From a virus, in the IMG/VR virus record IMGVR_UViG_3300037156_000420, positions 1 through 48,440 of that record: a DNA stretch of 48,440 nt. One strand, written 5' to 3'. The notes under the pieces are model-generated. The model saw only the letters and a list, made by a program, of their open reading frames with translations, had not been told where the DNA came from and did not search any database. This document shows positions 5,650 through 28,887 of the stretch, piece after piece (position 1 is the stretch's first letter; each line of letters starts with the position of its first letter). The position numbers were made by a program, and so were the translations under genes.

Positions 5650-5664
5650 CCCGATAAACCTTGT

Positions 5665-5682: not shown

Positions 5683-5730
5683 ACGGTCACCGGTTGTCGC
5701 TCAACCCTCTGAAACGGCATCCTTTATCCC

Positions 5731-6719: not shown

Positions 6720-6724
6720 CACTT

Positions 6725-7633
6725 ATGGCAACGATCGATTTAAGCCAGTTACCGCCCCCTGATGTGGTCGAAGAACTGGATTATGAAAGCCTGCTTGAAG
6801 AACGTAAAACGACGCTGATTTCGCTCTATCCAGCCGATCAGCAGGAGGCCATCAGCCGCACGCTGACGCTGGAATCCGAACCGCTGGTCAAACTGTTGCA
6901 GGAGAATGCCTACCGCGAACTGATCCTGCGCCAGCGGGTGAACGAAGCCGCACGCGCCGTGATGGTGGCCTATGCGACGGGCAGTGATCTGGATCAGCTT
7001 GCGGCGAATTTCAACGTTCAGCGCCTGGTTTTACAGCCTGCGGATATCAATACAATCCCCCCAAAAGCCGCCGTTCTAGAAGCCGATAGCGATTTACGCG
7101 TGCGTATTCCTCAGGCGTTCGAAGGGTTGAGCGTGGCGGGCCCGACCGGAGCTTACGAATATCATGCTCGTTCGGCAGACGGACGCATTGCGGATGCATC
7201 GGCTATCAGCCCGTCTCCCGCTGAAGTGACCGTCACTATTTTGTCACGAGACAACGATGGCGTTGCCTCTGATGACTTGCTCATTGCCGTTGAAAAAGCC
7301 CTGAACGATGAAGATGTCAGGCCTGTTGCCGATCGCGTCACAGTACAGGCAGCTGAGATTGTGCCTTATCAGATTGATGCCGTGCTGTATGTTTTGCCTA
7401 CGCCCGAAATTGAGCCCGTCCGTGCGGCGTCTGAAGCGCAGCTGAAAACCTACATCAACACGCAAAGCCGGTTAGGTCGCGATATCCGGCTTTCTGCAAT
7501 TTATGCCGCTTTGCACGTTGAGGGCGTTCAGCGGGTAGAGCTGTCGTCACCGCTGGCGGATATCGTGCTTGATAAAACTCAGGCGTCACTCTGTACCGGT
7601 TACTCACTGACAGTGGGAGGCTCGGATGAGTGA
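6725..7633 (+). CDS. J: Baseplate assembly protein J
   Basis: P2 gpJ, a 302-residue outer baseplate protein, colinear and equal in length with the element 2 copy. Shared segments are MATIDLSQLP at the start, YREL/VILRQRVNEAA near residue 65, QAFEGLSVAGPTG/VG and GRDIRLSAIYAALHVEGVQRVEL near the end. It overlaps the I start by eight bases, a fixed P2 arrangement that couples translation. Confidence 0.9.
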   Translation: MATIDLSQLPPPDVVEELDYESLLEERKTTLISLYPADQQEAISRTLTLESEPLVKLLQENAYRELILRQRVNEAARAVMVAYATGSDLDQLAANFNVQRLVLQPADINTIPPKAAVLEADSDLRVRIPQAFEGLSVAGPTGAYEYHARSADGRIADASAISPSPAEVTVTILSRDNDGVASDDLLIAVEKALNDEDVRPVADRVTVQAAEIVPYQIDAVLYVLPTPEIEPVRAASEAQLKTYINTQSRLGRDIRLSAIYAALHVEGVQRVELSSPLADIVLDKTQASLCTGYSLTVGGSDE

Positions 7634-8240
7634 TCGTCTGTTACCCTCGGGTTCCACTCAGCTTGAAGTTGCGGCCGCACAGGCGCTATCGCACATCGGT
7701 AATCTCAGCGTTCCTCTGCGTGAACTCTGGGATCCTGATACCTGTCCGCTGGAGCTGCTGCCTTATCTTGCCTGGTCATTTTCGGTCGATCGCTGGGATG
7801 AAAACTGGACCGAACCGGCGAAACGCTCTGCAGTTAGCGCGGCCTGGTTCGTTCATAAACATAAAGGAACTATCGGGGCTTTGCGGCGGGTCGTTGAACC
7901 GCTGGGATATTTAATTCGCGTCACCGAATGGTGGCAGACCAACGATATTCCGGGCACTTTTCGCCTCGATGTCGGCGTGCTTGAAACGGGCATCACGGAA
8001 GAAATGTATCAGGAACTCGAACGTCTGATCACCGATGCCAAACCCTGCAGCCGCCATCTGAACGGTCTCTCCATCAATCTGGATGTCACGGGTAATTTTT
8101 ATATAGCAGCAGCGACTTACGACGGAGAAGAACTGACGGTTTATCCGTATTTCCCCGAAACCATTACAGCATCCGGATCCGCGTTTACCGGTTCAGCAAT
8201 CCATTTAATCGACAACCTGAGAGTGAATTATGACAGCTAA
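7626..8240 (+). CDS. I: Tail protein I
   Basis: P2 gpI, the baseplate protein that joins tail fibre H. It is 204 residues, 29 longer than the element 2 copy because of a C-terminal extension after LTVYP. The core LPYLAWSFSVDRWDENW and HKHKGTIGALRRVVEPLGY is typical. The extended end runs into the H start, suggesting I and H were exchanged together as a host-range module. Confidence 0.87.
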   Translation: MSDRLLPSGSTQLEVAAAQALSHIGNLSVPLRELWDPDTCPLELLPYLAWSFSVDRWDENWTEPAKRSAVSAAWFVHKHKGTIGALRRVVEPLGYLIRVTEWWQTNDIPGTFRLDVGVLETGITEEMYQELERLITDAKPCSRHLNGLSINLDVTGNFYIAAATYDGEELTVYPYFPETITASGSAFTGSAIHLIDNLRVNYDS

Positions 8241-9189
8241 ATATTATGCCCTGCTGACCAATCTGGGCGCAGCGAAACTGGCCAATGCGACGGCGCTGGG
8301 TACGCAACTCAGCCTGGCCCAAATGGCGGTCGGTGATGGCGGCGGTACCCTGCCAACACCGGACCCTGCTCAAACGCAATTAATTGGCGAAAAACGCCGG
8401 GCGGCGCTCAATTCACTGAGTGTTGATCCGGCAAATACTAATCAGATTATCGCCGAACAAATTATCCCTGAGGATCAGGGCGGATTCTGGATCCGAGAAA
8501 TTGGCTTATTTGATCAGGACAATACGCTGATTGCTATCGCCAACTGCCCTGAAACCTATAAACCCCAGTTACAGGAAGGCAGTGGCCGGACGCAGACGGT
8601 TCGTATGATTTTAGTGGTAAACAGCACGGACGCGGTCACGCTGAAAATTGATCCGTCTGTGGTACTGGCAACACGCAAATATGTCGATGATAAAGTCATT
8701 GAGGTTAAGGCCTATGCAGACAGTCTTATGGCTGCTCACCTGGCGGCAGCTTCGCCTCATCCACAATATGAAATACCTGTTGGTATCCCCCTTCCCTGGC
8801 CGACAGCAACTCCACCGGCTGGTTGGTTAAAATGTAATGGCGCTGCGTTTGATAAAGCAAAATATCCTAAGCTCGCCGCTGTTTACCCACTGGGTTTGTT
8901 GCCTGATTTGCGAGGCGAGTTTATTCGTGGTTGGGATGATGGCCGAGGAGTTGATACCGGGCGAGTGATCTACAGCTCCCAAGCTCATTCTATTATTGCT
9001 CATACACATAACGCGCCGACATCGGATGGTTCCGCATTGAATTCAGGGACATATGAGGTCCCAGGGAACTTATCAAATAACAGTTATAAGGGTTATGATT
9101 ATTCCCCCCCAGTCCCAACATCATCTACTGGTGGCAATGAAACCCGTCCTCGTAATATCGCTTTTAATTATATTGTTCGGGCAGCCTGA
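8230..9189 (+). CDS. H: Tail fibre H, short, with collar-type tip
   Basis: A 319-residue tail fibre. Residues 1-150 are the conserved P2 gpH attachment domain (LTNLGAAKLANATALGTQ, GGFWIREIGLFDQD, GSGRTQTVRM). The rest is a phage tail-collar type tip (PWPTATPPAGWLKCNG, LPDLRGEFIRGWDDG) ending in NETRPRNIAFNYIVRAA. It is far shorter than the 839-residue H of element 2 and has no fibre assembly gene G behind it. The last 400 bases look more AT-rich than the attachment part, which suggests a swapped receptor-binding tip. Confidence 0.85.
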   Translation: MTAKYYALLTNLGAAKLANATALGTQLSLAQMAVGDGGGTLPTPDPAQTQLIGEKRRAALNSLSVDPANTNQIIAEQIIPEDQGGFWIREIGLFDQDNTLIAIANCPETYKPQLQEGSGRTQTVRMILVVNSTDAVTLKIDPSVVLATRKYVDDKVIEVKAYADSLMAAHLAAASPHPQYEIPVGIPLPWPTATPPAGWLKCNGAAFDKAKYPKLAAVYPLGLLPDLRGEFIRGWDDGRGVDTGRVIYSSQAHSIIAHTHNAPTSDGSALNSGTYEVPGNLSNNSYKGYDYSPPVPTSSTGGNETRPRNIAFNYIVRAA

Positions 9190-9223
9190 TCCTCTTAAAG
9201 CGTAAAAACTTCCGGACCTGTGC

Positions 9224-9252
9224 AAAGAGATAATTATTATTATCTCTTTTTT
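9224..9252 (+). terminator. Intrinsic terminator after H (element 1)
   Basis: An 11-base-pair stem (AAAGAGATAAT at 9224-9234 with ATTATCTCTTT at 9239-9249) and a four-base loop, followed by T residues to 9252. It closes the V-W-J-I-H operon directly before the FI promoter site. Confidence 0.8.
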
Positions 9253-9267
9253 ATTTCCCCTCTCTGT

Positions 9268-9285
9268 TGTGCCACCGCCCCCACG
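9268..9285 (+). promoter_or_regulatory. Ogr-type site before FI (element 1)
   Basis: TGT-N12-ACG (TGTGCCACCGCCCCCACG), one base off the TGT-N12-ACA dyad, about 90 bases before FI and just past the terminator of the previous operon. The corresponding site in element 2 is perfect. Confidence 0.5.
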
Positions 9286-9359
9286 CCCCTGATCAAATGC
9301 GCTTTCTGTTGCGAACCGGCATCCTTGCTTTACCACCCACAACAGAGAGAGTCACCCTG

Positions 9360-10529
9360 ATGGCTGATTATCATCACGGCGTGCGTGTTGTCGAAATCAA
9401 CGACGGCACCCGCGTTATTTCCACCGTTTCCACAGCAATTATCGGCATGGTTTGTACCGCAGAAGATGCGGATGCGACTGTTTTCCCTTTGAATACCCCG
9501 GTTCTGATCACTGACGTTCTGGCGGCCAGCGGTAAAGCGGGCACCAGCGGAACATTGCGTGCCGCGCTTCTGGCAATTGCAGACCAGTGTAAACCGGTCA
9601 CCGTCGTGGTACGTGTCGCCACGGGTGAAGATGAAGCCGCAACCACCAGCAACATCATTGGCGGTTCTGATGCCAATGGCCGTTACACCGGTATGAAAGC
9701 GCTGCTTTCTGCGCAGGCAGAGCTGGGCGTGAAGCCTCGTATTCTGGGTGTTCCTGGTCTGGATAATCAGGCTGTCGCGACCGCGCTGGCAGGTGTTTGT
9801 CAGCAGCTGCGTGCGTTCGGTTATGTCAGCGTTTACGGTGCAAAAACCATTTCTGATGCGATCAAATACCGCGACAACTTCAGCCAGCGCGAGCTGATGC
9901 TGATCTGGCCAGACTTTGTTAACTGGAATACCACCACCAGCCAGTCTGATATCGCTTATGCCACCGCCCGCGCTCTGGGTTTACGCGCCAAAATTGACCA
10001 GGACACTGGCTGGCATAAAACCTTATCCAACGTCGGCGTTAACGGTGTTACCGGTCTGTCCGCCAGTGTCTTCTGGGATTTGCAGGCAACGGGTACCGAC
10101 GCGGATTTGCTGAACGAAGCCTGTGTGACAACACTGGTGCGCAAAGACGGTTTCCGTTTCTGGGGCAACCGGACCTGCAGCGATGACACACTGTTCCTGT
10201 TCGAAAACTACACCCGTACAGCGCAGGTTCTGGCCGACACCATGGCCGAAGCGCACATGTGGGCGGTCGATAAACCAATGACCCCGACACTGGTGCGCGA
10301 CATGATTGACGGCATCAAAGCCAAAATGCGCGAAATGAAATCAGCGGGTTACATCATTGACGGCGACTGCTGGTATGACGAAACCGCGAACACCGCTGAA
10401 ACTCTGAAGGCCGGTAAGTTGTATATCGATTACGACTACACTCCGGTTCCTCCACTGGAAGATCTGACCCTGCGCCAGCGTATCACCGACTCTTACCTGG
10501 TGAACTTTGCCGCGTCCGTAAACAGCTAA
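9360..10529 (+). CDS. FI: Contractile tail sheath protein FI
   Basis: P2 gpFI, the contractile sheath subunit, 389 residues, the same length as the element 2 copy and very similar throughout (MADYHHGVRVVEINDGTRVI, RDNFSQRELM, LIDYDYTPVPPLEDLTLRQR). The ATG at 9360 follows AGAGAGTC; the frame is open upstream to 9267 but that extension is not part of the family. Sheath contraction drives the tube through the cell envelope. Confidence 0.93.
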   Translation: MADYHHGVRVVEINDGTRVISTVSTAIIGMVCTAEDADATVFPLNTPVLITDVLAASGKAGTSGTLRAALLAIADQCKPVTVVVRVATGEDEAATTSNIIGGSDANGRYTGMKALLSAQAELGVKPRILGVPGLDNQAVATALAGVCQQLRAFGYVSVYGAKTISDAIKYRDNFSQRELMLIWPDFVNWNTTTSQSDIAYATARALGLRAKIDQDTGWHKTLSNVGVNGVTGLSASVFWDLQATGTDADLLNEACVTTLVRKDGFRFWGNRTCSDDTLFLFENYTRTAQVLADTMAEAHMWAVDKPMTPTLVRDMIDGIKAKMREMKSAGYIIDGDCWYDETANTAETLKAGKLYIDYDYTPVPPLEDLTLRQRITDSYLVNFAASVNS

Positions 10530-10543
10530 GGAGACAAAAACTC

Positions 10544-11053
10544 ATGGCACTTCCTAAGAAATTGAAATACCTGAACCTGTTTAATGACGGGAACAGCTAC
10601 CTCGGTCTGGTCTCCTCACTGACGCTGCCGAAACTCACCCGTAAGCTGCAAAACTATCGTGGCGGCGGCATGAGCGGTTCGGTCGCGGTGGACTTCGGGC
10701 TGGATGACGACGCGCTGACGCTGGAATGGTCCATCGGCGGTCTGGATGAGCTGGTTCTGCAGCAATGGGGCAGCACATCAGATATTCCGCTGCGGTTTGC
10801 CGGTTCATTGCAGCGCGACGACACCGGTGATGTCTCCGCAGTCGAAGTGATGATGCGCGGCCGTCACAAAGAGTTTGATTTCGGCGAGTACAAACAGGGT
10901 GAAGATACTGAAACCAAAGTCACCACCCAGTGTACGTATTTCAAACTGACCATCGACGGCAAAGAGCTGATTGAGATCGACACCGTCAATATGGTGGAAG
11001 TCGTCAACGGCGTTGACCGTCTGGCGGAACACCGCACCGCGCTCGGCTTGTAA
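10544..11053 (+). CDS. FII: Tail tube protein FII
   Basis: P2 gpFII, the inner tube subunit, 169 residues. Starts MALPKKLKYLNLFNDGNSYLG, the same as in element 2, and is colinear to the end (TVNMVEVVNGVDRLAEHR). An AAGGAGAC site lies just upstream of the ATG and the gene is 14 bases after the sheath gene, so both are made from one mRNA in high amounts. Confidence 0.93.
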   Translation: MALPKKLKYLNLFNDGNSYLGLVSSLTLPKLTRKLQNYRGGGMSGSVAVDFGLDDDALTLEWSIGGLDELVLQQWGSTSDIPLRFAGSLQRDDTGDVSAVEVMMRGRHKEFDFGEYKQGEDTETKVTTQCTYFKLTIDGKELIEIDTVNMVEVVNGVDRLAEHRTALGL

Positions 11054-11112
11054 TCCCTTCCCTGAGCCGGCAGCTTTTGCCGGCTTGATTTCCGATTTAA
11101 GCAGGAAAACGT

Positions 11113-11400
11113 ATGAATCTCACTGATATCAACGACAACACCGTGATTTTGGATGTTCCGCTAAAACGCGGTGAAATGGAAATCACTGAAGTTCAGGTGA
11201 CTAAACCCACAGCCGGCAGCCTGCGGGGTATCGGCCTCGCGGCGCTGGCGAACGCCGATGTGGACGCGCTGATCACTATTTTGCCGCGCATCACGTATCC
11301 GAATCTGACCAAAGAAGAATGCTCGCGCCTGGAGCTTCCCGATCTGATCGCGCTGGCAGGTAAGGTGATAGGTTTTTTATCGCCGAAACCGGTGGCGTAA
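11113..11400 (+). CDS. E: Tail chaperone E
   Basis: P2 gpE, 95 residues, the tail assembly chaperone between tube and tape measure. Contains RGIGLAALANADVDALI, as in element 2. A slippery T-TTT-TTA near its end lets a fraction of ribosomes shift back one base and read on into E' to make the E+E' fusion, as shown for P2. Confidence 0.88.
   Translation: MNLTDINDNTVILDVPLKRGEMEITEVQVTKPTAGSLRGIGLAALANADVDALITILPRITYPNLTKEECSRLELPDLIALAGKVIGFLSPKPVA
11373..11379 (+). other. -1 ribosomal frameshift site in E (element 1)
   Basis: TTTTTTA is aligned with the E frame as T-TTT-TTA. A shift of -1 enters the frame of the downstream E' ORF, which is open to 11555. P2 is known to use a similar slippery run at this place, and element 2 has the same heptamer. 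Confidence 0.8.
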
Positions 11401-11432
11401 GTATTGCGCCCCGCCTCACCGTGGATGACCTG

Positions 11433-11555
11433 ATGGCAGATATCGCGGTGATATTTCACTGGCCGCCGTCCGAGATGGACGGTATGTCACTCACCGATCT
11501 GCTGAACTGGCGACATAAGGCACTGCAACGCAGCGGAGTAAAAACAGATGAGTAA
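11433..11555 (+). CDS. E': Tail chaperone extension E'
   Basis: A 40-residue frame (MADIAVIFHWPPSEMDGMSL) in the -1 frame relative to E, normally expressed as the C-terminal part of the E+E' fusion; the internal ATG is only a landmark. HWPPSE and WRHKA are shared with element 2. Its end overlaps the T start. The fusion would bind the tape measure while the tube polymerises. Confidence 0.75.
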   Translation: MADIAVIFHWPPSEMDGMSLTDLLNWRHKALQRSGVKTDE

Positions 11556-13179
11556 TCTCGAACAGTTACCTCACACGCTGGAAAAAATAAATCAGGATCT
11601 GGCCACCTTCAGGGCCGAAACCGACAAGGTCAGAGAAAACCTGCTGATGCTGCCCGGGAAGACATTATTCAGCGTCGTCTCAGAAGACATCACTGATGCT
11701 TCCCTTCAGTTTGAAAAGTCGCTTTTCGCCCCGGACAGCGAAACCGAAACGCAGGCATTTTCCGGCCTGAAAAAGGCGGTGGTCAGCCAGCCGGCAGAAA
11801 AGTTGCGGCAGCAACGCCCGATGCAAATGGAACAGAAAGGGCTGGAGATCGGGCAACAGTTTAAAAATCGCGAACTGAAAATTGGCCAGTTAAAAAATAT
11901 CAGCTCATCAGCCCTTTCCTTTGCACAACCGAAACTGGCGCTGGCGCAAACTTTTCTCAAACCGGGTGCAGATCTGGAGGCCGGGCTGGCTGAAGTGCAG
12001 TCGGTACTCGGACTGAAAAATGACGATCCGCACGTTGCCACTCTGCGTCAGCAAAGTCTTTCGATGGCGGCTTCCGGCCATTCGCCGGCGGAAGTTGTCG
12101 CCAGACAGCAGGCATTAGCGAAAGGCGGAATGAATGCCGCTCAGGTTCTGGAACAAACACCGGCGGCACTGAATGGCGCAACACCTGCTGCGCAGATGGC
12201 GGTGACCGTGAAAGGCGACAATCTGGATGGCGATATCACTAAGTTATTTGCCACCTGGGACACTATCCGTATCAATCTTTTTGACGGGCAAAGTGCCGCC
12301 CTGCGTGAACTGACGCAAACGGCTACCAGCTGGCTGGGCACGATCAATACCTGGATCACCGATAATCCTATGCTGGTGAATTCCCTGCTCGGTCTGGCAT
12401 TAGGCATCACGGGCATTGTCGGCGGAATGGGTGCGCTCGGCATGGTCATCGCGCCGGTGCTCAGCGGCATCAGTATGCTGATGGCGGGAGCCGGTTTGCT
12501 TGGGACTATTTTTACCGGTACCGGTGGCATGATTGCCGCAGCGTTCACGGCCATCGGGTTGCCACTTCTGCCCGTCATCGCACTGATTGCCGGGATCGGG
12601 ATCGCCGTAGTGAAACTTTGGGAACCGATCAGTGCCTTTGTCGGCGGAGTAATTGACGGATTTACTGCGGCAATGGGGCCAATAAGTGGCGCGTTTACAC
12701 CGTTCAAAACCGCGCTGGGATGGATTACGGATTTGTTTGAGCCAATCCACTTCACTCAGGACACCCTGAGCGGCTTCACTGATATCGGCAAAGGGGTTGG
12801 AGAAGCGATCGCAGAGATTTTCGTCACGCTGAATAAAGCCGTCTCTCAAATCGGCGAAGTCTTTAGCTGGGCGAAAAAAGGATGGGACTCCATTTTTGGT
12901 GACAGTGAACCCGCTGAACGCCCGGATATTTCAACACCGCCCTTAGATGGCATCTCCCCAACCGGCGGTGCGCTGAACCTGTATCAGCCAGCTAAAAGCA
13001 GCGTGGCCAACAACCTGACGGATAACCGGGCAACGACGGTAAATTTAAGTTTCACAGCTACCCCGGAGACGGATCATAACCAGGTCAGAGCCTGGATCGA
13101 GGATTCCATTAACCAGCGGGAATGGAACAATACCAACAATCTCCTCAGCCAGTACAACAACGGAGGGATTTACTCATGA
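11548..13179 (+). CDS. T: Short tape measure protein T
   Basis: P2 gpT-type tape measure, 543 residues against 824 in element 2. The second half matches: the hydrophobic Gly/Ala-rich region (about 275-360), the KLWEPISAFVGGVIDG segment and a proline-rich C-terminus. The N-terminal half is a charged helical region with many Gln and Lys and has little visible similarity to the element 2 protein. Tail length scales with this protein, so particles from element 1 should have clearly shorter tails. Confidence 0.85.
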   Translation: MSNLEQLPHTLEKINQDLATFRAETDKVRENLLMLPGKTLFSVVSEDITDASLQFEKSLFAPDSETETQAFSGLKKAVVSQPAEKLRQQRPMQMEQKGLEIGQQFKNRELKIGQLKNISSSALSFAQPKLALAQTFLKPGADLEAGLAEVQSVLGLKNDDPHVATLRQQSLSMAASGHSPAEVVARQQALAKGGMNAAQVLEQTPAALNGATPAAQMAVTVKGDNLDGDITKLFATWDTIRINLFDGQSAALRELTQTATSWLGTINTWITDNPMLVNSLLGLALGITGIVGGMGALGMVIAPVLSGISMLMAGAGLLGTIFTGTGGMIAAAFTAIGLPLLPVIALIAGIGIAVVKLWEPISAFVGGVIDGFTAAMGPISGAFTPFKTALGWITDLFEPIHFTQDTLSGFTDIGKGVGEAIAEIFVTLNKAVSQIGEVFSWAKKGWDSIFGDSEPAERPDISTPPLDGISPTGGALNLYQPAKSSVANNLTDNRATTVNLSFTATPETDHNQVRAWIEDSINQREWNNTNNLLSQYNNGGIYS

Positions 13180-13646
13180 TGATGTCGCTGGGTTTATTTG
13201 TGTTTAAGTTGAGCACGCTGCCCTATCAGAATACGAACCGTCAGGTGAACTATGGCTGGGGGGCGAACGCGCGTTTCGGACAGCGTCCGGTCTCTCAGTT
13301 TCTCGGGCTGGGTGAGGAAACGATAAAAATCACCGGGCAATTATTGCCTGAAATGACCGGCGGCATGCGCTATTTGCAGGCACTGCAGAGCATGGCAGAT
13401 TCAGGGCGGGCATGGCCGCTCATTGAAGGCAGTGGCACGATTTACGGCATGTTCGTTATCAAAAGTATAGCCAATGACAATGCCGAGTTTACTTCCAGCG
13501 GCCAGGCGCGAAGCATCAATTTCACGCTCAATCTGACGCGCGTCGATGAATCGCAGGCCGCCATGTTCGGCGATCTGCTGACCCAGGCCGAGGGCTTATA
13601 TAACAAGGCCAGTTCGGCACTCAACAATTTCGCCAGCGGAGTCTGA
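13176..13646 (+). CDS. U: Tail protein U
   Basis: P2 gpU family, 156 residues, equal to the element 2 copy when started at the ATG at 13176 (MMMSLGLFVFKL). Shared motifs are LPQF/SQFLG, WPLIEGSGTIYGMFVI and TRVDESQAAMFGD. In P2 it is needed for tail assembly. Three ATGs in a row follow GGAGGG; the first overlaps the T stop by four bases. An open frame to 13122 shadows T. Confidence 0.88.
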   Translation: MMMSLGLFVFKLSTLPYQNTNRQVNYGWGANARFGQRPVSQFLGLGEETIKITGQLLPEMTGGMRYLQALQSMADSGRAWPLIEGSGTIYGMFVIKSIANDNAEFTSSGQARSINFTLNLTRVDESQAAMFGDLLTQAEGLYNKASSALNNFASGV

Positions 13647-13648
13647 TC

Positions 13649-14749
13649 ATGCTTACTGATTTGCAGCTACCCGTTGGCGCACGCATCACGCCCGCATTCA
13701 CGCTGACGATAAAAAATAAGGTGCTGGAAGAAAATATCTCTGCTCGGATCATCAGTTTATCTGTCACGGATAACAGCGGTTTTACCGCAGACACATTGAA
13801 TTTAACCTTCGATGACAGCGACGGGCAATTGCAAATGCCCGTTCGCGGCACCGTTTTGCATCTGCATCTGGGATGGTCGAAACAGGCGCTCTATGACTGC
13901 GGCTATTTCACGGTCGATACAGTCACTCATTCCGGCTCTCCGGACAAAATAGGAGTGGTTGCCCGCAGCGCAGATTTCCGCGGTTCCTTTGATAACAAAA
14001 TCAGCCAGTCTTACGATGATTACACGCTCGGCGCGATTGTCAGAATCATTTCAAGCCGGAATAAATTAGATCTGCCAGTAATCCCGCAGGAACTTGATAG
14101 CGTTAAGATCCCGCATATTGACCAGACCAGCGAAACGGACAGCTACTTTCTCACCCGGCTGGCACAACGTTACGGTGCGCAGGTAACGGTTAAAAACGGC
14201 GCAATTTTATTTTTTAAAGCAGGCACCGGTCGAACCTCTTCCGGACAAGCAATCCCCTGGAAAACCATTGTCCGCAGCGACGGCGATAACCACAACTATC
14301 AGATGGTCGATAAGAAGGCATACGATGGCGTGAAGGCGCAGTGGCATGATCTCAAAACGGCGACCACCAGCAATGTTGCTCTCAAGCGTTCGCCCGCAGA
14401 AGGCAAAGAAACCCAGCCTGCCAGTTACATCGCGGGATCCGGGACAAATGTTCTTGAACTGGGCAAAATATTTCCTGACGAAGAGACTGCTAAGCGGGCT
14501 GCGGATTCAGTGTTCAATCAGATTCAGAATGATGCCGCAACATTCAGCATACGGCTGGCCCTGGGACGTGCTGATTTGAGTGCGCAATCTCCGGTCAATG
14601 TGCAAGGGTTTAAAGACGTGATCGACAGTCAGCGCTGGGTGATTGATTCCGCTCTGCATGAGATTAATGAGAAAGGTTTTACTACTAAATTGATTCTGAA
14701 ACCTTATGTTGCAGATATCACTTATCAGTCTTCAATTTTGCAATTATAA
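13649..14749 (+). CDS. D: Baseplate hub protein D
   Basis: P2 gpD, a 366-residue late tail protein forming the central baseplate hub that carries the spike. The N-terminal part (LTLKSLVTDN-like ISLSVTDNSGFTADTLNLTF) and IDQTSETDSYFLTRLAQRYGA match element 2. It lacks the Lys-rich insertion seen near residue 240 of the element 2 protein. Last tail gene of element 1; a 9-pair hairpin (14746-14767) overlaps its stop. Confidence 0.88.
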   Translation: MLTDLQLPVGARITPAFTLTIKNKVLEENISARIISLSVTDNSGFTADTLNLTFDDSDGQLQMPVRGTVLHLHLGWSKQALYDCGYFTVDTVTHSGSPDKIGVVARSADFRGSFDNKISQSYDDYTLGAIVRIISSRNKLDLPVIPQELDSVKIPHIDQTSETDSYFLTRLAQRYGAQVTVKNGAILFFKAGTGRTSSGQAIPWKTIVRSDGDNHNYQMVDKKAYDGVKAQWHDLKTATTSNVALKRSPAEGKETQPASYIAGSGTNVLELGKIFPDEETAKRAADSVFNQIQNDAATFSIRLALGRADLSAQSPVNVQGFKDVIDSQRWVIDSALHEINEKGFTTKLILKPYVADITYQSSILQL

Positions 14750-14813
14750 CTTGCTTTTGCGAGTTATGAGTTCATAATTACCTCATCGCTTACCTGTTAT
14801 GCCGGAGGTTTTT

Positions 14814-14993
14814 ATGATGCATTGTCCACTTTGCGGAAAAGTAGCCCATACACGTTCGAGCCGCTATCTGAGTGAATCGACCAAGGAACGCTATCATCAG
14901 TGCCAGAATATCAAATGCAGTTGTACTTTTGCGACGCATGAATCAGTCGCCCGGGTTATCTCAAAACCGGGTAGCCAACCTGCCACTGCGTAG
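14814..14993 (+). CDS. ogr: Late-gene activator Ogr
   Basis: P2 Ogr/delta zinc-finger transcription activator, 59 residues. Starts MMHCPLCGKVAHTRSSRYLS and has the four finger cysteines (C-x2-C, then C-x4-C in YHQCQNIKCSCTF). It contacts the RNA polymerase alpha subunit and turns on late promoters bearing TGT-N12-ACA. The ATG at 14814 follows CGGAGG. As in P2, it sits between D and the attachment site. Its retention suggests the tail operons of element 1 can still be switched on. Confidence 0.9.
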   Translation: MMHCPLCGKVAHTRSSRYLSESTKERYHQCQNIKCSCTFATHESVARVISKPGSQPATA

Positions 14994-14998
14994 CCATT

Positions 14999-15212
14999 TT
15001 GTAGTCACTGATGTAAAAAAAAGGGGTTAGCCGATGGCTAACCCCTTGTTCTATATTAACTAGTAGATGTCGCGTTAGCGATACCTTAGTTAAGACGCTC
15101 TTAATATAGACCATTGATTAATAAGGATATTTTTTATTTTTCAGTTAGTTATCCCTCTCTCTGGTGTCACCTGATGTCACCTGAAACAAGCTGTGTAGTC
15201 AATTTGTAGTCA
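14999..15212. other. Junction of the two elements; candidate attachment region with repeated motifs
   Basis: The interval between ogr of element 1 and int of element 2 is where P2-type phages keep their attachment site, so it should hold the right end of element 1 and left end of element 2. TGTAGTCA occurs three times in the same direction (15000-15007, 15194-15201, 15205-15212) and TGTCACCTGA twice in tandem (15165-15174, 15175-15184). Such repeats are plausible integrase arm sites. No core could be defined because no other junction is in the window. Confidence 0.4.
15021..15047. terminator. Strong hairpin terminator after ogr
   Basis: A perfect 12-base-pair stem (15021-15032 with 15036-15047, AAGGGGTTAGCC) and a GAT loop. 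An A-run lies on its left and a TTGTT tail on its right, so it may also stop transcripts coming from int on the other strand. Confidence 0.7.
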
Positions 15213-16241
15213 TTGGAAATCTTTGATATTTGATAAGGGGCTGAGTGTGACGGCTTGCTCCAAGTGGTCAGGGGCAAAATGCGCATATCTCATAGTTTCC
15301 CTGATATTTGCATGACCTAATACCTTCTGAAGCACCAAAATATTGCCGCCATTAATCATAAAATGTGCACCAAAGGTATGACGTAAAACGTGTGTCATTT
15401 GGCCTTCAGAAAGTTCTATGTCAGTCAGTGCCAATGCTTTCTTAAACTCCTGATAACACGGTTTTGAGAACTGGCCGGACAGCGGTTCCAGCTCATCATA
15501 AAGCCATTGCGGGATCGGAACGGTTCGGTTTTTCTTCCCCTTGGTTTTATAAAACGTGAGTTTATTGGGAGAAAGTTGGGAGCGTGTAAGGTTGTTTGCT
15601 TCTGTCCAGCGGGCACCTGTCGCCAGGCAAATCTTGACAATGCGAGTTAAATGCTCTTTCCCATAACGTTCGCAGGCATTCAAAAGCTGGCGGATCTGAG
15701 TTTTTGTCAGCCAGCTCATTTCCTTGTCTTCTTCTTTAAAAATGCGTATACCGTCTAACGGGTTCGCGCCCTTCCATTCCCCCAGGCGTTTCAGCTCATT
15801 AAACACAGCATAGAGATACTGATGTTCACGGTTGACCGTGATTGGCTTAGCCTTCCATTTCGCTTTGTCTTTGTGATAACCGTTATCGATCTTACCTTTC
15901 AGCCTTTGTTCGCGGTAATGCGCCCAGCTTTTAGTTGTTATTTGAGCCGCGACAGGATCACCCAGGCCGTTCACTATGATATTGAGCTTAGCAAGCCGCG
16001 ACTTTGAGGCAGTAAGTGACTGTCCGTGTAAATCATTCCATAGCTTTACCAGGACACTTAAACGGCGGGTGTCGGCTTTCTCACCTTTCCAGGGTTTTTC
16101 CTCTGCCTCTTTGATGGTGAAGCTTTCAAAAGCAATGGCCTCACCTTTCGTCGGGAACGCCTTGCGGATACGTTTACCGTCACGCCCTGATGGATAGAAA
16201 TCAGTTTGCCATTCACCGGTAGGCAATTTTTTTACGACCAT
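15210..16241 (-). CDS. int: P2-type tyrosine integrase of element 2
   Basis: Site-specific recombinase of 343 residues for integration and excision. The catalytic domain shows ATGARWTEAN (first Arg), HVLRHTFGAHF (His-x-x-Arg), LGHANIRETMRYAHF (His and the nucleophile Tyr). The N-terminal part is the arm- and core-binding region of P2-type integrases. It lies next to the repressor side of element 2 and reads toward the junction, as in P2. No second integrase is in the window, so that of element 1, if any, lies to the left. Confidence 0.93.
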   Translation of the reverse strand: MVVKKLPTGEWQTDFYPSGRDGKRIRKAFPTKGEAIAFESFTIKEAEEKPWKGEKADTRRLSVLVKLWNDLHGQSLTASKSRLAKLNIIVNGLGDPVAAQITTKSWAHYREQRLKGKIDNGYHKDKAKWKAKPITVNREHQYLYAVFNELKRLGEWKGANPLDGIRIFKEEDKEMSWLTKTQIRQLLNACERYGKEHLTRIVKICLATGARWTEANNLTRSQLSPNKLTFYKTKGKKNRTVPIPQWLYDELEPLSGQFSKPCYQEFKKALALTDIELSEGQMTHVLRHTFGAHFMINGGNILVLQKVLGHANIRETMRYAHFAPDHLEQAVTLSPLSNIKDFQ

Positions 16242-20901: not shown

Positions 20902-21203
20902 TGACTTATTTGACTCATGAATTAAAAATACTACCGGAATATTTCAGTGCGGTATGTAGTGGCGTCAAAAAGGCGGAGCTGCGAAAAAATGACCATGACT
21001 ATCAGGTGGGTGATTCCATTATTTTGAAAGAATGGGTGCGCGGTGAAGATAATTTGGGTAGTTACACGGGGCGCTCCTGTGTCGTCATAATTCAGCATAT
21101 TGCGAATGTCACTGAGTATGCACCTGGGTATGTGCTTCTGAGTATTGATCTGCCATCTCTGAAGTGTTTCCCAGTAGCACGCCCTGGCGGGTCTTCTAAG
21201 TAA
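20901..21203 (+). CDS. DUF3850-like (ASCH/PUA fold) protein
   Basis: A 100-residue protein with THELKILPEYFSAVCSGVKKAELRKND and YQVGDSIILKEW, the signature of the DUF3850 group related to ASCH domains, which are thought to bind RNA or modified nucleotides. It overlaps dam at its start and gene A at its end by one base each. Function in the phage is unknown. Confidence 0.75.
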   Translation: MTYLTHELKILPEYFSAVCSGVKKAELRKNDHDYQVGDSIILKEWVRGEDNLGSYTGRSCVVIIQHIANVTEYAPGYVLLSIDLPSLKCFPVARPGGSSK

Positions 21204-23446
21204 TGCAGACCAGCCGCTTCACTCCGCAAATTGAAACGCCCGCAGCTTGGGCGTTTTCCTGGAACAAACCACGCCAGGCCGTTTCTGGCCTGGAAAGACC
21301 GCTTACCCGTGATGAATACGATCAGGGGCAAGCTGTTTTAATCAGAGTAAAAAACCTCTCTACCGACCTGCGAGAAATTTTCACAGGCCGCTATGCGCAT
21401 CTGCTGAAAACCCAGGGCATCCACGCCGCAAATAAATATCTGGTTTATACCCTTGGGCGCAGCATTCTGCCGCGTGTGGATGCAGTCAATTCAGCGCATG
21501 AAATGAATCTTCATGCTTCCATAAAATTCATGTCTGAGGCAGACACCTATCATGGCCTGCCGAGCATGAGCGACAAACCGCTGCGCCGGTTCGCGCAGGA
21601 TATCGCCGGACAACTGAAAGAAATCTATGAAGACTATTGCGATCAATTGCTGGAAGAAAACGGCGGAGATAATACAGCGCTTTTCTCAGCTTTCACGCAA
21701 GGCCACCTATACGGTGAAATCGCCGGAATGGCTCGCGCTTTCAACGTCACGCCGATGTACTGGAAGAAATACTGCAAAGGTAAATTAGATGCGGTTTCCG
21801 CAATCGCCGGTATGTCACGTCTGGTTAATCCGGATTGGTGGTTAAGTCAGTTGAAAGGCCAGCGCACCCGCTGGCGTGAGTCTTTGCTGATCGCCATCGG
21901 CAAGGTAAACCGCGACGCCTCCCCCTATGCCAGTAAGCAGGCTATTCGTGAAGTACGTGCGCGCCGCCTGTCTAATCTCGACTACCTGAAAAGCTGCGAC
22001 CTGGAAAACATCGAAACCGGCGAGCGTTTCAGTCTGATCGACAAAGTGATGGCGAGCATTTCAAACCCTGAAATCCGCCGTATGGAGTTAATGAGCACGA
22101 TCGCAGGCACCGAAAAATATGCTGCCGCAAATGGCGACGTCGGGATGTTCCTGACCATCACCACCCCTTCCAAATATCACCCGACCCGCATGGTCGGCAA
22201 GGGCAATAAAAAACGCGTTCAGCGGAATCACTCCTGGGACAAGGAAGCCTTTACCCCGAAAGATGCGCAGCGTTATCTGTGCGGGATCTGGAGCAAGATG
22301 CGCACCGCGTTTAAAGATAATGATTTGTCTGTATACGGTATGCGGGTAGTGGAACCACACCACGACGCGACGCCGCACTGGCACATGATGTTATTCACTA
22401 AGCCCGCCATGCGTCAGCCGGTGATCGATATCATGCGTAAATACGCTATGAAAGAAGACGGTGACGAGCGCGGCGCTGCTAAAAATCGCTTTGACTGTAA
22501 GCACCTGAACCGTGGCGGCGCGGCTGGCTATATTGCCAAATACATCGCAAAAAACATCGACGGCTACGCGCTGGAAGGCGAGCGCGACCACGAAACAGGC
22601 GAGTTGCTGACAGATTCCGCCGCTGCTGTTACGGCCTGGGCTGCTACCTGGCGCATTCCTCAGTTTCGCCCTATCGGCCTGCCTACCATGGGTTCATACC
22701 GTGAGTGTCGCCGTATCCGCTCCATCAGTCTGTCTGAAACCTTTGACAAAGAAGTGGAAGCCGTTCGCGCTGCTGCTGATGCCGGTGATTTTATGGCGTA
22801 CATGTCAGCCCAGGGCGGCGCAAATGTGCCTCGCGACGATCAGACTGTGCGCGTAGCCCGCCGCGTAGCTGACGAGCTGAACGCATACGATGAAGAAGTG
22901 AAAAAGGTTGTGGGCATTTTCGCGCCTCACCTTGGCGACTCCCGTGTTTATGAAACCCGTACAACTCAGTGGCGCATCGTTTCTTCCGCCGTTGACGTTG
23001 AGGTTTTGACCTTAAAAAGCGCCTCCGGCGCGCCTCGGAGTCCTGTCAATAACTGTGGGTTAGGTGGAAAGAAACAGGCTGCAAATAGGCGCGATAGCCA
23101 GGCTGGGAGCGACCTTACAGCGTCCAATCCCAACAACCTGCGAGTTATTGACTGGACAGACACAGCCGCCGTGAGGGCGATTGTGGCGCGCATACGGGAA
23201 GAAACGCCGAGAGTTAGCAAGGCGCAGCGAAGTTTTGACCCAACAAAAGGGCGTGACGTTGCCCCGTCTGCAAGATTGACGAGAGAAGAACGGGCGCGCC
23301 TGCCTGAAATTGAGCGCGAATTGATGAAACACAGCATCACTGCGGAGCGTTGGGAGCTGGAAGCGTTAAGCCGTGGGGCGAAAGTCAGCTTTGGTGATCA
23401 GAAAATGCAATTTGAAGTTTTGCAGGATTGGGCAGAATTCAACTAA
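21203..23446 (+). CDS. A: Replication initiation endonuclease A, full length
   Basis: P2 gpA homologue of 747 residues, close to the P2 protein in length. Contains ITTPSKYHPTRMV, the HUH motif in EPHHDATPHWHMM (about 384-396) and nucleophile tyrosines Y443 and Y447 in GYIAKYIAKN. It nicks the origin in its own gene (23019-23049) and starts rolling-circle replication. The C-terminal segment after VNNCG (about 640-747) is missing from the element 1 copy. Confidence 0.93.
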   Translation: MQTSRFTPQIETPAAWAFSWNKPRQAVSGLERPLTRDEYDQGQAVLIRVKNLSTDLREIFTGRYAHLLKTQGIHAANKYLVYTLGRSILPRVDAVNSAHEMNLHASIKFMSEADTYHGLPSMSDKPLRRFAQDIAGQLKEIYEDYCDQLLEENGGDNTALFSAFTQGHLYGEIAGMARAFNVTPMYWKKYCKGKLDAVSAIAGMSRLVNPDWWLSQLKGQRTRWRESLLIAIGKVNRDASPYASKQAIREVRARRLSNLDYLKSCDLENIETGERFSLIDKVMASISNPEIRRMELMSTIAGTEKYAAANGDVGMFLTITTPSKYHPTRMVGKGNKKRVQRNHSWDKEAFTPKDAQRYLCGIWSKMRTAFKDNDLSVYGMRVVEPHHDATPHWHMMLFTKPAMRQPVIDIMRKYAMKEDGDERGAAKNRFDCKHLNRGGAAGYIAKYIAKNIDGYALEGERDHETGELLTDSAAAVTAWAATWRIPQFRPIGLPTMGSYRECRRIRSISLSETFDKEVEAVRAAADAGDFMAYMSAQGGANVPRDDQTVRVARRVADELNAYDEEVKKVVGIFAPHLGDSRVYETRTTQWRIVSSAVDVEVLTLKSASGAPRSPVNNCGLGGKKQAANRRDSQAGSDLTASNPNNLRVIDWTDTAAVRAIVARIREETPRVSKAQRSFDPTKGRDVAPSARLTREERARLPEIERELMKHSITAERWELEALSRGAKVSFGDQKMQFEVLQDWAEFN
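23019..23049 (+). other. ori: Probable rolling-circle origin inside gene A
   Basis: A perfect GC hairpin (GCGCC-TCC-GGCGC, 23019-23031) is followed directly by GCCTCGGAGTCCTGTCAA (23032-23049). Hairpin plus nick site is the usual layout for HUH enzymes, and the P2 origin is known to lie within gene A. The exact nick position is not claimed. Confidence 0.5.
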
Positions 23447-23981: not shown

Positions 23982-24155
23982 ATGGATTCCTCGCATGAGC
24001 TTAGAATTGCGCTGATAAAAATCCGGCTTATGGCTGATATTTCTCGCGATGCGCAATGCAGAGCTGATGAACTCCATATGGTATTAGAGATGATTTCTGA
24101 ATTTGCTGATCGTGCATTAGACGAGGATGAATGCTGTCATCTTTCTGCAGAATAA
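23982..24155 (+). CDS. Small SOS-controlled protein (element 2 copy)
   Basis: A 57-residue protein, easily missed because of its size. It follows AGGAGTG and a LexA box and is homologous to 3355-3549: RLMADISRDAQCRADELHMV pairs with QLIADISQTAQCNPKEFLVV. Both position and control match 186 tum, the SOS-induced antirepressor gene. Whether it counteracts CI is unknown. Conservation between the two elements supports it as coding. Confidence 0.65.
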   Translation: MDSSHELRIALIKIRLMADISRDAQCRADELHMVLEMISEFADRALDEDECCHLSAE

Positions 24156-24709
24156 AAAATTCGAAAGCTATGCATGCATTATGCGCATGGTTTTGCATGA
24201 TCCCGAAAGGATCAAAAAATACCTGATCGCCTCTCTCGCTGGGCTTGGAGCTGTTTTGAGTAATGCATTAAAAACGGTGAGTCAAGTCAGAAGCGGGCAG
24301 GCGGGTAACATTGCGCGCGCCGAGGAGAGGAGCGTCAAAAATGATGCAGCCAGCTATGTATGCAGGGGCATTTTCTCTTTTTCACTGCCTTTGCGGTACG
24401 GTTTTAGACAGATGAGCGGTGCTTAGGTGATGTGGAGCGATCGGTTTGGTATAGGGAGCATCACACATCTTCGAATATAGTGATGAGATAATGATTTGTA
24501 CCAATTGGGCGGGGAAGGAATAAAACCCACGCTAGGCTCCAAGAGTTCATAGCCAGCCTGACACCCTTGGTACTCGGGGAGCAACCTGGTATGAAAGTAA
24601 TCTCATTGCCAGAAGAGGACATTACTTACTTCATATTGTGTTAACTAATTGGGACACCACAATATATTGAGAAGGATTCCACACTTCACAATATTTCATA
24701 GAGTGCACA
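24156..24709. other. Mostly non-coding stretch between SOS gene and cargo
   Basis: About 550 bases without a gene I can defend. A 99-codon frame (24127-24426) begins inside the SOS gene, has no ribosome site and resembles no family I know, so it is not called. A short frame ending CLCGTVLDR (24341-24415) overlaps it. A GTACCAA/TTGGTAC inverted repeat brackets the candidate cos site at 24503-24521. The minus-strand frame 24631-24837 runs through the riboswitch and is rejected. Confidence 0.5.
24503..24521. other. cos: Candidate cos site
   Basis: Contains GGCGGGGAA (24508-24516), which is the centre of the 19-base P2 cohesive end as I recall it (GGCGAGGCGGGGAAAGCAC). The flanking bases differ. 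The location between the early genes and Q is right for cos. If correct, the cargo operon lies between cos and Q. Confidence 0.35.
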
Positions 24710-24738
24710 TTGCACAGTCGAAGATTTTCACCTATATT
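24710..24738 (+). promoter_or_regulatory. Promoter of the fluoride operon
   Basis: TTGCAC (24710-24715), a 17-base spacer and TATATT (24733-24738). The predicted start is about 24745, exactly where the riboswitch stem begins, which strongly supports the call. The -35 matches only TTG. The promoter does not look Ogr- or CI-controlled, so the operon can work in the lysogen. Confidence 0.6.
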
Positions 24739-24745
24739 CTTCAGC

Positions 24746-24808
24746 AAGGTGATGGTGTTCCACCTTTCCCAACCGCCGGACTGTCCAGTTCGGATGATGA
24801 CGCCTGAT
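24746..24808 (+). ncRNA. Fluoride riboswitch (crcB motif)
   Basis: Hallmarks of the crcB aptamer in order: stem 1 AAGGTG (24746-24751) with CACCTT (24761-24766) around the loop ATGGTGTTC; then AACCGCC (24771-24777); stem 2 CCGGACT (24776-24782) with AGTTCGG (24787-24793); then GATGATGACGCCTGAT (24793-24808). The loop GGTGTT pairs with GACGCC (24799-24804) as the known pseudoknot. The RNA senses fluoride through three Mg ions and turns on fluoride tolerance genes. The genes below (ppaC, uspA, eno) are among those known to sit under this motif in other bacteria. Confidence 0.9.
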
Positions 24809-24847
24809 ATACATTTTTTGCTTTCTCTCTTAGGCACGTATGTCAGG
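24803..24847 (+). promoter_or_regulatory. Riboswitch expression platform hairpin
   Basis: CCTGATATAC (24803-24812) pairs over 10 positions with GTATGTCAGG (24838-24847). The first arm shares CC with the pseudoknot; the second arm holds the CAGG that would serve as ribosome site for the leader ORF at 24855. Fluoride-stabilised pseudoknot and this hairpin should therefore exclude each other, giving translational control. There is no good T-run after the hairpin, so termination is less likely, though a T6 at 24814-24819 lies in its loop. Confidence 0.5.
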
Positions 24848-24854
24848 TATTCTT

Positions 24855-24923
24855 ATGAAAAAAATCTATCTTTATAATTCGTCTGTTAACGTTCTTCTGC
24901 ACCGTCAGAGGAAGACGTTATGA
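24855..24923 (+). CDS. Leader peptide coupled to ppaC
   Basis: A 22-codon frame (MKKIYLYNSSVNVLLHRQRK then TL) whose TGA overlaps the ppaC ATG (ATGA). CAGG lies seven bases before its ATG, inside the riboswitch hairpin arm. It could pass riboswitch control on to ppaC by translational coupling. Coding status is inferred from layout only; ppaC also has its own GAGGAAG site at 24908-24914. Confidence 0.4.
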   Translation: MKKIYLYNSSVNVLLHRQRKTL

Positions 24924-25822
24924 TCCGCGTTTTTGGTCACCTCAATCCCGATAGCGACAGCGTCTGCAGTGCTCTCGTTACAGCGGACTGGCTTAAAAGC
25001 CTCGGAAAGCACGCTACCCCCTTCAGGCTTGGCGATATTACCCCTGAAACGGCGTTTATTCTGCAGCAGGCCAACGTGCAACCCCCTCACCTACTCAAAG
25101 AAGACCTGCGTGGAAAAGATGTCTGGCTGGTCGACTTTACGGATTTGGAGCAGGGCCCACCCTCTTTAGCTTTCAGTAACATTTTGGGCATCATAGACCA
25201 TCATCGGTTAGGTACGGTCATCACACAAAACCCTCCGGATGTTTGGATACGTTCCGTCGGCTGCTGTGCCACCATACTCTGGCAAATCCTTACCTTTGAA
25301 TATCATCAGCCCATTTCCTCCTCTCAGGCCATACTGATGTTGGGCGCGATACTGAGTGATACCGTGGCGCTCACATCACCAACCACTACCACTCACGACA
25401 TGGCTGCCGTGCAGGCATTATCCGTCATAAGTCAACTGAATTATGACGCCTTTGTGAAAGGGCTGCTGATCGCTAAAACCGACATCGTGGGGCTGACACC
25501 AGACCAACTTCTTATGAAAGACGCCAAGCGCTATCAGATTAACGGGCAGTCGCTACTGCTTTCACAAATCGAAGTGGCATGCATGTCGGCAATTAACACC
25601 GTGCTCCCTGATCTGCTTGTCGCGTTAACAAAAGAATGTCAGTCCGGCAATCTAGACATGGCTATGTTGGCCGTCACGGATATTTTCCAGAAAAACACAA
25701 CGTTATATTTCTCAGATAATAATGCGCTCGATCTCACATGCCTTTCTCTTCCCGGCGTTATAAGTAGGAAAAAGGACATACTCCCGTGGCTGACGCACGA
25801 GCTTACAACCTCGTCGAGGTAA
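24920..25822 (+). CDS. ppaC: Family II Mn-dependent inorganic pyrophosphatase
   Basis: Hydrolyses pyrophosphate in the cytoplasm. The 300-residue DHH-family protein has GHLNPDSDS with metal ligands H7, D11 and D13, D72, the DHH motif D93-H94-H95, a further Asp in ILSDT (about 148), and the C-terminal substrate loop S282-R283-K284. The residue after D72 is Phe where typical members have His (VDHNE), a change close to the metals. Enterobacteria normally rely on the unrelated family I enzyme Ppa, which fluoride inhibits strongly; Mn-loaded family II enzymes are reported to be less sensitive. First main gene under the fluoride riboswitch. Confidence 0.92.
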   Translation: MIRVFGHLNPDSDSVCSALVTADWLKSLGKHATPFRLGDITPETAFILQQANVQPPHLLKEDLRGKDVWLVDFTDLEQGPPSLAFSNILGIIDHHRLGTVITQNPPDVWIRSVGCCATILWQILTFEYHQPISSSQAILMLGAILSDTVALTSPTTTTHDMAAVQALSVISQLNYDAFVKGLLIAKTDIVGLTPDQLLMKDAKRYQINGQSLLLSQIEVACMSAINTVLPDLLVALTKECQSGNLDMAMLAVTDIFQKNTTLYFSDNNALDLTCLSLPGVISRKKDILPWLTHELTTSSR

Positions 25823-25825
25823 TTT

Positions 25826-27549
<1,724 letters not shown>

Positions 27550-27559
27550 CCTTACCGTA

Positions 27560-27593
27560 TTAATCCCCCCTGGAACACAACCGGGGGGATTAA
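27560..27593 (+). terminator. Strong hairpin between eno and the membrane gene
   Basis: Perfect 11-base-pair stem, TTAATCCCCCC (27560-27570) with GGGGGGATTAA (27583-27593), loop of 12. No T-run follows; instead AAGGAGAT begins inside its right arm. It could stabilise the eno mRNA or partly mask the next ribosome site and lower expression of the membrane protein. Confidence 0.55.
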
Positions 27594-27602
27594 GGAGATA
27601 TG

Positions 27603-27782
27603 ATGAAAACTCACATTTTTATTATTTCTATGTTTACAGGTATTGTCGCAACTTACGCCGTTTTATTCCTGGGATGCTTGTTTACCGGCAATACATTACC
27701 CACAGTGGGCATCGTTATTATTTCACTTATAGTTGGTGCCTGCGCGCAGCAGTTGTCGAGGCTGTTGATGTCCAATAGATAG
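27603..27782 (+). CDS. Small two-helix membrane protein in fluoride operon
   Basis: A 59-residue protein of unknown family with two hydrophobic segments (about 4-25 and 32-52), a GNTLP turn and a basic end (RLLMSNR). AAGGAGAT lies upstream of two ATGs (27600 and 27603). It is not a CrcB/Fluc channel, which needs about 125 residues and four helices, nor a CLC-F antiporter. As the last gene of a riboswitch-controlled set it may act on membrane fluoride or stress, but its role is unknown. Confidence 0.65.
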   Translation: MKTHIFIISMFTGIVATYAVLFLGCLFTGNTLPTVGIVIISLIVGACAQQLSRLLMSNR

Positions 27783-27818
27783 CATAGTAAGAGCATTCCT
27801 TGATGCGACGGTGAGTCC

Positions 27819-27846: not shown

Positions 27847-28887
27847 TTATTCCGGAGTAAGCTCATAAGAAGTAAACCTGATCACCCCCTCCCCAAACCA
27901 CGCATTCAACTCCTTGAACCGTTCCTGCAGCGGTGTCAGCTCATTCCGCACAAATACCTGGGATGCCTTAACTGAATCACCAAACCCGCCGCTGTTCTCC
28001 GGAATAATGCCCATCATCTGAGGTGGCACGCGGTGCGCGCAAAGCAAATCGTTCTGACTGGCTTTCTTGATATTAAAAAAATCGTCTTTGGTTGCGACTT
28101 CACTCAAAGGGATGATTTTTAGCCCGTCAGGCTTGCCGTTAGGCGCGTACATAAACCCGTTACGGAAGTTACCCAGACCTTTAGTACTACCCATTGCCTT
28201 ACGCATGGCATCAACATCGCTGCTGCTCATCGCTGCATCCGTCATATACAAAATGTATCCGGCGTGTGCGCCGTTCTGATAGTACTTGCGGCGGAACAAC
28301 GTGGCTGCCTCATTCAACCAGGCGGAATTCAGGGCGCTGAGATATTCCGGCAGGCCGTACAGCTCCTGATTAATATCAGGTTCAATCAGATGAAACACGC
28401 TGCCTGTTTCAAACTGGTGCGCTTCTTTCCATTGCTGCACAAACCAGTAAGTATCCGGCTCCACACCGCGCCGTGCATATTTGGCGGGCACAGTTTTCAT
28501 CACCACTGCGTCTCCGAGCTGGTTGCGGATCACTTCTAAAAATGCGTTCCCGAATACCAGATAATCCAGGGCAAAGCGGCTGAACTCCTGCTGTGATAGC
28601 AGCGGATGCGGGACAAAGGTCGAAGCCAGAATATTACGCTTAACGTAAAGCGATGAACTGTGGTGAACCGCCGCCCGCAGCGTGCGAGCCAGTCCGTCAA
28701 AGCTGATCGGCGGCTCATACCACTGGCCGTTACCAATACATTCGATGTAATCGAGAATTTCACGGCGGTCTAAAACCGGTGTCGGATCGCCAAAGCTGAA
28801 CGTCATCTCCCCTCCGGTCTGCTGCGCCGTTGCTGTAACCGTGGTTTGTGCCGCCTTGCGGAATTTGCGCTTAGCCACGTTGATCAC
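27847..28887 (-). CDS. Q: Portal protein Q
   Basis: P2 gpQ portal, 346 residues (if read from the GTG at 28887; an internal GTG three codons later is also possible). Contains the family segments FALDYLVFGNAFLEVIRN, RRKYYQNGAHAGYILY and RVPPQMMGIIPENSGGFGD. The dodecameric portal is the DNA gate of the head. It is transcribed leftward with the terminase gene P, toward the cargo. Absent from element 1. Confidence 0.92.
   Translation of the reverse strand: MINVAKRKFRKAAQTTVTATAQQTGGEMTFSFGDPTPVLDRREILDYIECIGNGQWYEPPISFDGLARTLRAAVHHSSSLYVKRNILASTFVPHPLLSQQEFSRFALDYLVFGNAFLEVIRNQLGDAVVMKTVPAKYARRGVEPDTYWFVQQWKEAHQFETGSVFHLIEPDINQELYGLPEYLSALNSAWLNEAATLFRRKYYQNGAHAGYILYMTDAAMSSSDVDAMRKAMGSTKGLGNFRNGFMYAPNGKPDGLKIIPLSEVATKDDFFNIKKASQNDLLCAHRVPPQMMGIIPENSGGFGDSVKASQVFVRNELTPLQERFKELNAWFGEGVIRFTSYELTPE

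Follow-up and report, generated by a model that had tools for sequence, protein, structure and literature searches.

The closest described system to the locus presented here is the fluoride resistance operon of Enterobacter cloacae FRM. This operon lies on the transposase-flanked island GI3, where a riboswitch precedes ppaC-uspA-eno-gpmA-crcB-orf5249 (PMC5533749). Both induction and resistance were measured in that system: with fluoride, expression of ppaC increases 166-fold, that of uspA 121-fold, and that of eno 177-fold, and a fragment carrying ppaC-uspA-eno alone is enough for growth to resume at 1000 mg/L fluoride (PMC5533749). Two of the gene products have been studied with respect to fluoride. 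Family II pyrophosphatases resist it, their inhibition needing far more fluoride than that of family I, and a family II enzyme swapped into yeast confers higher fluoride tolerance (PMC11857102). Enolase is inhibited by fluoride with a Ki of about 80 uM (PMC11139923). A second relevant system is the gpA-gpQ hotspot of P2-like phages in E. coli, where cargo consisting of anti-phage, partition, or toxin genes is carried between gene A and the portal gene, by cos (Rousset et al. 2022, PMC9122126). The main text of that study makes no mention of fluoride, enolase, or pyrophosphatase.

Here, we analyze the 48,440-nucleotide viral record IMGVR_UViG_3300037156_000420 from IMG/VR (hereafter, the window), for which a preliminary description had proposed a fluoride riboswitch inside a P2-like prophage. 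We find that the riboswitch is followed by genes in the riboswitch-ppaC-uspA-eno order of the E. cloacae FRM type, and that these genes lie in the slot between cos and the portal gene. We consider it likely that these genes form a resistance cassette induced by fluoride, which a P2-like prophage carries as cargo for lysogenic conversion; the prophage is probably from Rahnella or a close relative. The fluoride cassette and the P2 cargo hotspot are each known; their combination appears to be new. The literature searched contained no example of it, nor any paper on fluoride resistance in prophages.

The aptamer lies on the plus strand at 24739-24813, as defined by the Rfam covariance model RF01734 (fluoride riboswitch) and by covariation. 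The match spans the full model (positions 1-64 of 64) with 44 bits and an E value of 5e-9, against an Rfam gathering cut-off of 34 bits, and RF01734 was the sole family to reach the gathering threshold in a scan of the whole window. The covariance-model scan suggested in the preliminary description is therefore significant, and the element it had placed at 24746-24808 falls inside the match, with its landmarks in the right order: the P1 stem (24748-24751/24761-24764), the loop GATGGTGTTC, CAACCGCC, the second stem, and GACGCC. The pseudoknot joins ACGCC (24800-24804) to GGTGT (24754-24758), that is, GGUGU/ACGCC in the RNA. As this pseudoknot is absent from the published RF01734 consensus structure, it was examined separately by covariation among ten aptamers from the window, plasmids, chromosomes, and other viral contigs. 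Standard pairs make up 98% of the P1 and pseudoknot cells in this set, and eight of these cells are altered on both sides, compared with 1.9 ± 1.1 in shuffles (0 of 500). These both-sided changes vanish when the partner strand is slid.

Upstream of the aptamer is a putative sigma-70 promoter (24710-24738, plus strand), with a -35 element TTGCAC/TGCACA, a spacer of 16-17 nt, and TATATT at 24733-24738; transcription is expected to start at about 24745-24746. TATATT stands 7 nt 5' of AAGG (24746), the first helix base of the aptamer, and an equal promoter score with the same placement occurs at only 0.7% of random window positions. Furthermore, a -10-like hexamer is found 6-8 nt 5' of the same aptamer base in all 12 scored leaders (window included). 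This agrees with the earlier proposal that the promoter is placed for a start at the aptamer's first base. The sequence thus shows an intact aptamer with a putative promoter at its 5' end, and the earlier identification of the element as a genuine fluoride riboswitch within a P2-like prophage is supported.

RF01734 elements precede genes that counter fluoride toxicity, and here ppaC, uspA, and eno lie downstream of the aptamer on the same strand, followed by a 60-aa membrane ORF. The first gene, ppaC (24920-25822, plus strand; 300 aa), encodes a family II (DHH-DHHA2) Mn-dependent inorganic pyrophosphatase according to Pfam (DHHA2, 2.5e-20; DHH, 9.5e-14), NCBIfam, and PDB comparisons. The protein misses the NCBIfam equivalog NF003877 by one bit (282 bits; cut-off 283), aligns with the family II pyrophosphatases 6ll7 and 1k23, and keeps the motifs GHxxPDxDS, DHH, and SRKK. 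The second gene (25826-26254, plus strand; 142 aa) encodes a uspA-like universal stress protein whose Pfam Usp match (4.7e-5) is slightly past the cut-off, and it is conserved within the cassette across copies. The third, eno (26269-27549, plus strand; 426 aa), matches TIGR01060 with 620 bits. Its enolase is divergent, with 54% identity to the E. coli chromosomal enzyme, and is 83-98% identical to the cassette enolases of five plasmids.

The 60-aa ORF (27600-27782, plus strand), a probable membrane protein, had no match in Pfam, PHROG, or NCBIfam. It is likely to be a real gene, because it is conserved downstream of eno in six relatives with substitutions mainly at third codon positions (e.g., 12/5/29 relative to the plasmid cassette L003). 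In plasmids, this ORF falls between eno and crcB, and a small fluoride-stress protein is one possible identity for it.

Relative to the E. cloacae FRM operon, the window shares the riboswitch before ppaC, then uspA and eno, but has neither gpmA, crcB, nor orf5249; the 60-aa ORF follows eno instead, and the cassette resides in a temperate phage rather than an island. A tblastn search of the window returned nothing significant for crcB, CLC-F, gpmA, or a P-type ATPase. Judged by its gene content, the cassette is a core, exporter-less version of the FRM-type operon, and its function is well supported by homology.

Similar cassettes are found on plasmids. The nearest copy is on the 468-kb plasmid of Rahnella aquatilis H145 (CP042359), where the same four ORFs adjoin chrA with 91.6% DNA identity over the whole cassette. 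As in the window, no crcB is annotated beside that copy. Identity is lower for plasmid cassettes of Enterobacter hormaechei (81%) and Escherichia coli (77.6%), and the E. coli cassettes are annotated with a fluoride riboswitch. Plasmid cassettes of E. coli, Klebsiella, and Enterobacter (L003, L004, and L006) have the same riboswitch-ppaC-uspA-eno order, but in these, crcB follows; two of them (L003 and L004) adjoin a Tn3-type resolvase. On E. coli plasmids and one chromosome (L004, L007, and L224), the cassette lies beside sitABCD, and in L004 and L224 it falls between sitABCD and iucABC, near a broken Tn3 transposase. At least a piece of the cassette, mostly partial, is present in 975 of 5426 complete E. 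coli genomes. The E. coli chromosome copy N39 was considered as a prophage and rejected, because its neighbors are sit/iuc genes and a broken Tn3.

The aptamer and ppaC are connected by a leader ORF of 27 codons (24840-24923, plus strand), whose stop codon (TGA) and the ppaC start overlap in the sequence ATGA. We find this overlap in all eight close relatives (window included), among which the leader ORF is 25-27 codons long and its peptide variable. The first leader ATG is lost in one cassette (L011), and in two others (L005/L006) the leader ORF is fused in frame to ppaC, unlike in the window. A functional leader peptide was rejected, because its sequence is not conserved and substitutions are spread evenly over the three codon positions. 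Translational coupling would be expected to preserve the frame but not the peptide, and the ATGA overlap with its kept frame points to translational control by such coupling.

An expression-platform hairpin is predicted at 24802-24848 (plus strand; -16.7 kcal/mol, z = -4.8). In the predicted fold, this hairpin pairs the 3' strand of the aptamer with the start codon of the leader ORF (24840-24842) and also covers a Shine-Dalgarno-like AGGC (24832-24835). Seven other leaders have an equivalent hairpin, which pairs with the sequence around the ATGTCAGG start site. In L016, L026, and L188, the hairpin is kept and the leaders' own Shine-Dalgarno bases are covered by unrelated inner stems.

These features suggest how the cassette might respond to fluoride. 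Fluoride, as a Mg-F complex, would stabilize the aptamer pseudoknot, which would then compete for the base of the hairpin; opening of the hairpin would expose the ribosome-binding site of the leader ORF. Ribosomes finishing the leader ORF would restart at the overlapping ATGA to produce PpaC, and uspA and eno would follow. When the pseudoknot strand is held unpaired in a simple fold, an 8-bp remnant still lies over the leader start codon, so the switch must rely on co-transcriptional folding or on ligand energy outside the computation. The energetics of the leader switch are thus not settled by the simple fold, and Rho-dependent effects may contribute.

It is possible, if rather doubtful, that the riboswitch controls transcription, through termination that may be Rho-dependent, and not translation of the leader. 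The mRNAs of the E. cloacae FRM genes increase more than 100-fold with fluoride (PMC5533749), beyond the usual effect of translation-only control. However, an intrinsic terminator was rejected as the expression platform because no such site lies between the aptamer and ppaC, and in the folded leaders the hairpin pairs the start codon and Shine-Dalgarno-like bases with no U-run after it. Rho-dependent polarity on untranslated RNA could also unite both modes.

Under leader-coupled control, an induced cell would acquire additional enolase and a pyrophosphatase of a type that tolerates fluoride, allowing two fluoride-poisoned steps to continue. Because no exporter is present in the window, fluoride would be countered not by efflux but by replacing its targets or supplying them in excess. 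All 12 of the active-site residues checked are retained in the cassette enolase, so this enzyme may be as fluoride sensitive as others and help by dose only. The full reading is that the phage gives its host fluoride-inducible tolerance by exporter-less target replacement, from a defense slot, through an ATGA-coupled leader ORF whose translation requires induction; we regard this combination as having about an even chance of being correct.

The phage context is that of P2. Recognized genes include gpA, the portal gene, a gpP-type terminase, the GPO scaffold, a P2 family capsid, the sheath, and baseplate J. Replication gene A is at 21203-23446 (plus strand; PF05840, 1.4e-103), and the portal gene, of the P2 gpQ type, is at 27847-28887 (minus strand; PF04860, 2.4e-17), convergent with the cassette. 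Alignment to the annotated cos ends of P2, 186, and relatives places a probable cos site at about 24293-24311, in a conserved non-coding block (24166-24385). An ORF at 24127-24426 was rejected as a gene, as it corresponds to this cos region. With gpA, the gpP-type terminase, GPO, the P2 family capsid, and cos adjoining the portal, the locus is inside a P2-like prophage, as had been claimed. The earlier placement of the riboswitch between an SOS gene and the portal gene stands on the portal side; on the other side, family searches recovered no SOS gene, and cos and an unknown small ORF are found instead. Portals with 93% identity occur in Rahnella-group genomes, from which we infer that the likely host is Rahnella or a neighbor.

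The window as a whole contains two P2-like prophages in tandem (1-15114 and 15210-48440). The left prophage appears to lack head genes: a second gpA (1314-3206, 52% identical) is followed directly by genes for lysis and the tail, together with one of the Ogr type. An integrase gene (15210-16241) opens the second prophage.

Phage homology stops after the cos block and restarts at about 27819, which delimits a cargo segment (24386-27818) in the cos-portal slot. Rahnella plasmid CP042359 is 91% similar over about 24606-27785 of this segment. Among 28 relatives with a conserved cos block, the cos-portal distance ranges from 129 to 3132 bp. The slot is nearly empty in three of them (L112, L122, and L131), and most others hold one or a few unrelated ORFs. 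Defense genes in the slots of relatives include AbiU/AIPR, bSEFIR, an S-4TM effector, NsnA/GmrSD, NB-ARC, an OLD/GajA-like ATPase, and AbiJ; a reverse-transcriptase match was weak and below the Pfam cut-off. This variability, with its many defense families, bears out the proposal that the site is a P2-type cargo spot. Rahnella-type P2-like slots (L097, L100, L102, L104, L121, L125, and L140) hold varied defense-type genes, namely RelA/SpoT-domain, Schlafen-NB-ARC, AbiU, OLD-like, SEFIR, and GmrSD genes, as well as one for an EAL-domain protein. In P2 itself, old-tin lies on the gpA side of cos, whereas the window cassette is on the portal side.

A search of related prophages for the same motif at this locus, as the preliminary description had advised, was negative: the fluoride cassette is in none of 80 portal relatives and in none of the 28 slot relatives, leaving this single viral record as its one occurrence in the clade. 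A 21.7-bit aptamer match in one phage relative (L099) was rejected as weak and inside a 241-aa ORF. This absence, together with the nearest copy being on a Rahnella plasmid, could indicate a recent, transient insertion. The cassette would then be a chance passenger from host or plasmid, or an assembly join, and the riboswitch real but irrelevant to the phage. We consider this unlikely, as the cassette occupies the slot where relatives hold other cargo, phage homology restarts no more than about 40 bp from its 3' end, and all ORFs, the aptamer, and the putative promoter are intact. An assembly join would also require two independent breaks around 3.2 kb.

Given that relatives carry anti-phage genes in the same slot, and that gpA-portal cargo is often defensive (PMC9122126), the cassette might instead serve the phage, with pyrophosphatase and enolase aiding replication or forming an anti-phage system like its slot neighbors. 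This appears highly improbable: the same genes and riboswitch give fluoride resistance in a bacterium (PMC5533749), the same set occurs on plasmids together with crcB, and the cassette would be off without fluoride. The earlier claim that lysogeny changes the host's response to fluoride rested on no gene, and the operon found here provides one; we infer, with good support from that operon, that host fluoride tolerance is linked to lysogeny.

To place the locus among viruses, two pattern scans over 2.9 million viral contigs were followed by an Rfam filter. Of the 67 viral stretches found with the first, loose pattern, just one passed the Rfam cut-off; a stricter pattern that included the 3' strand did better. 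Twelve other IMG/VR contigs passed the RF01734 cut-off, a rough lower bound, as divergent aptamers are missed and host DNA may be present in some of the contigs. Fluoride riboswitches are thus rare in viral contigs, in line with the preliminary description, but the present one is not unique. In some viral contigs (L191 and L179/L183), RF01734 is followed by a CrcB-like gene, recognized by eye, unlike in the window. In L191 (G025), the riboswitch and a 137-aa CrcB-like protein (about 2625-3139) adjoin a terminase gene, and this contig probably encodes a phage-borne fluoride channel. Six related viral contigs (L175, L176, L178, L180, L184, and L186) have an RF01734 aptamer 5' of terminase-region genes.

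One viral contig (L188/L193; IMGVR_UViG_3300011783_000026) resembles the window in that RF01734 precedes ppaC-uspA and the start of eno. It differs in phage type (lambda-like tail genes), in its ppaC (44% identical), and in that the contig end cuts the cassette, which comes after tail fiber, resolvase, umuDC-like, and OLD-like genes. It represents a second phage lineage with the cassette. When viral sequences were scanned with the ppaC protein, nothing closely related to it was found. Annotated phage records gave no leader match, and ppaC at only about 30% identity, in unannotated Gram-positive and fecal records.

What is new for this type of cassette is that it lacks an exporter and that a leader ORF appears to be coupled to ppaC. 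If our reading is correct, fluoride resistance can move by phage lysogeny, besides plasmids and islands, and the cos-proximal hotspot of P2 carries abiotic-stress genes besides anti-phage weapons. The locus would also represent a fluoride cassette that is compact and has no exporter, and its riboswitch a testable design whereby an ORF for a non-conserved leader peptide relays the signal to an enzyme gene.
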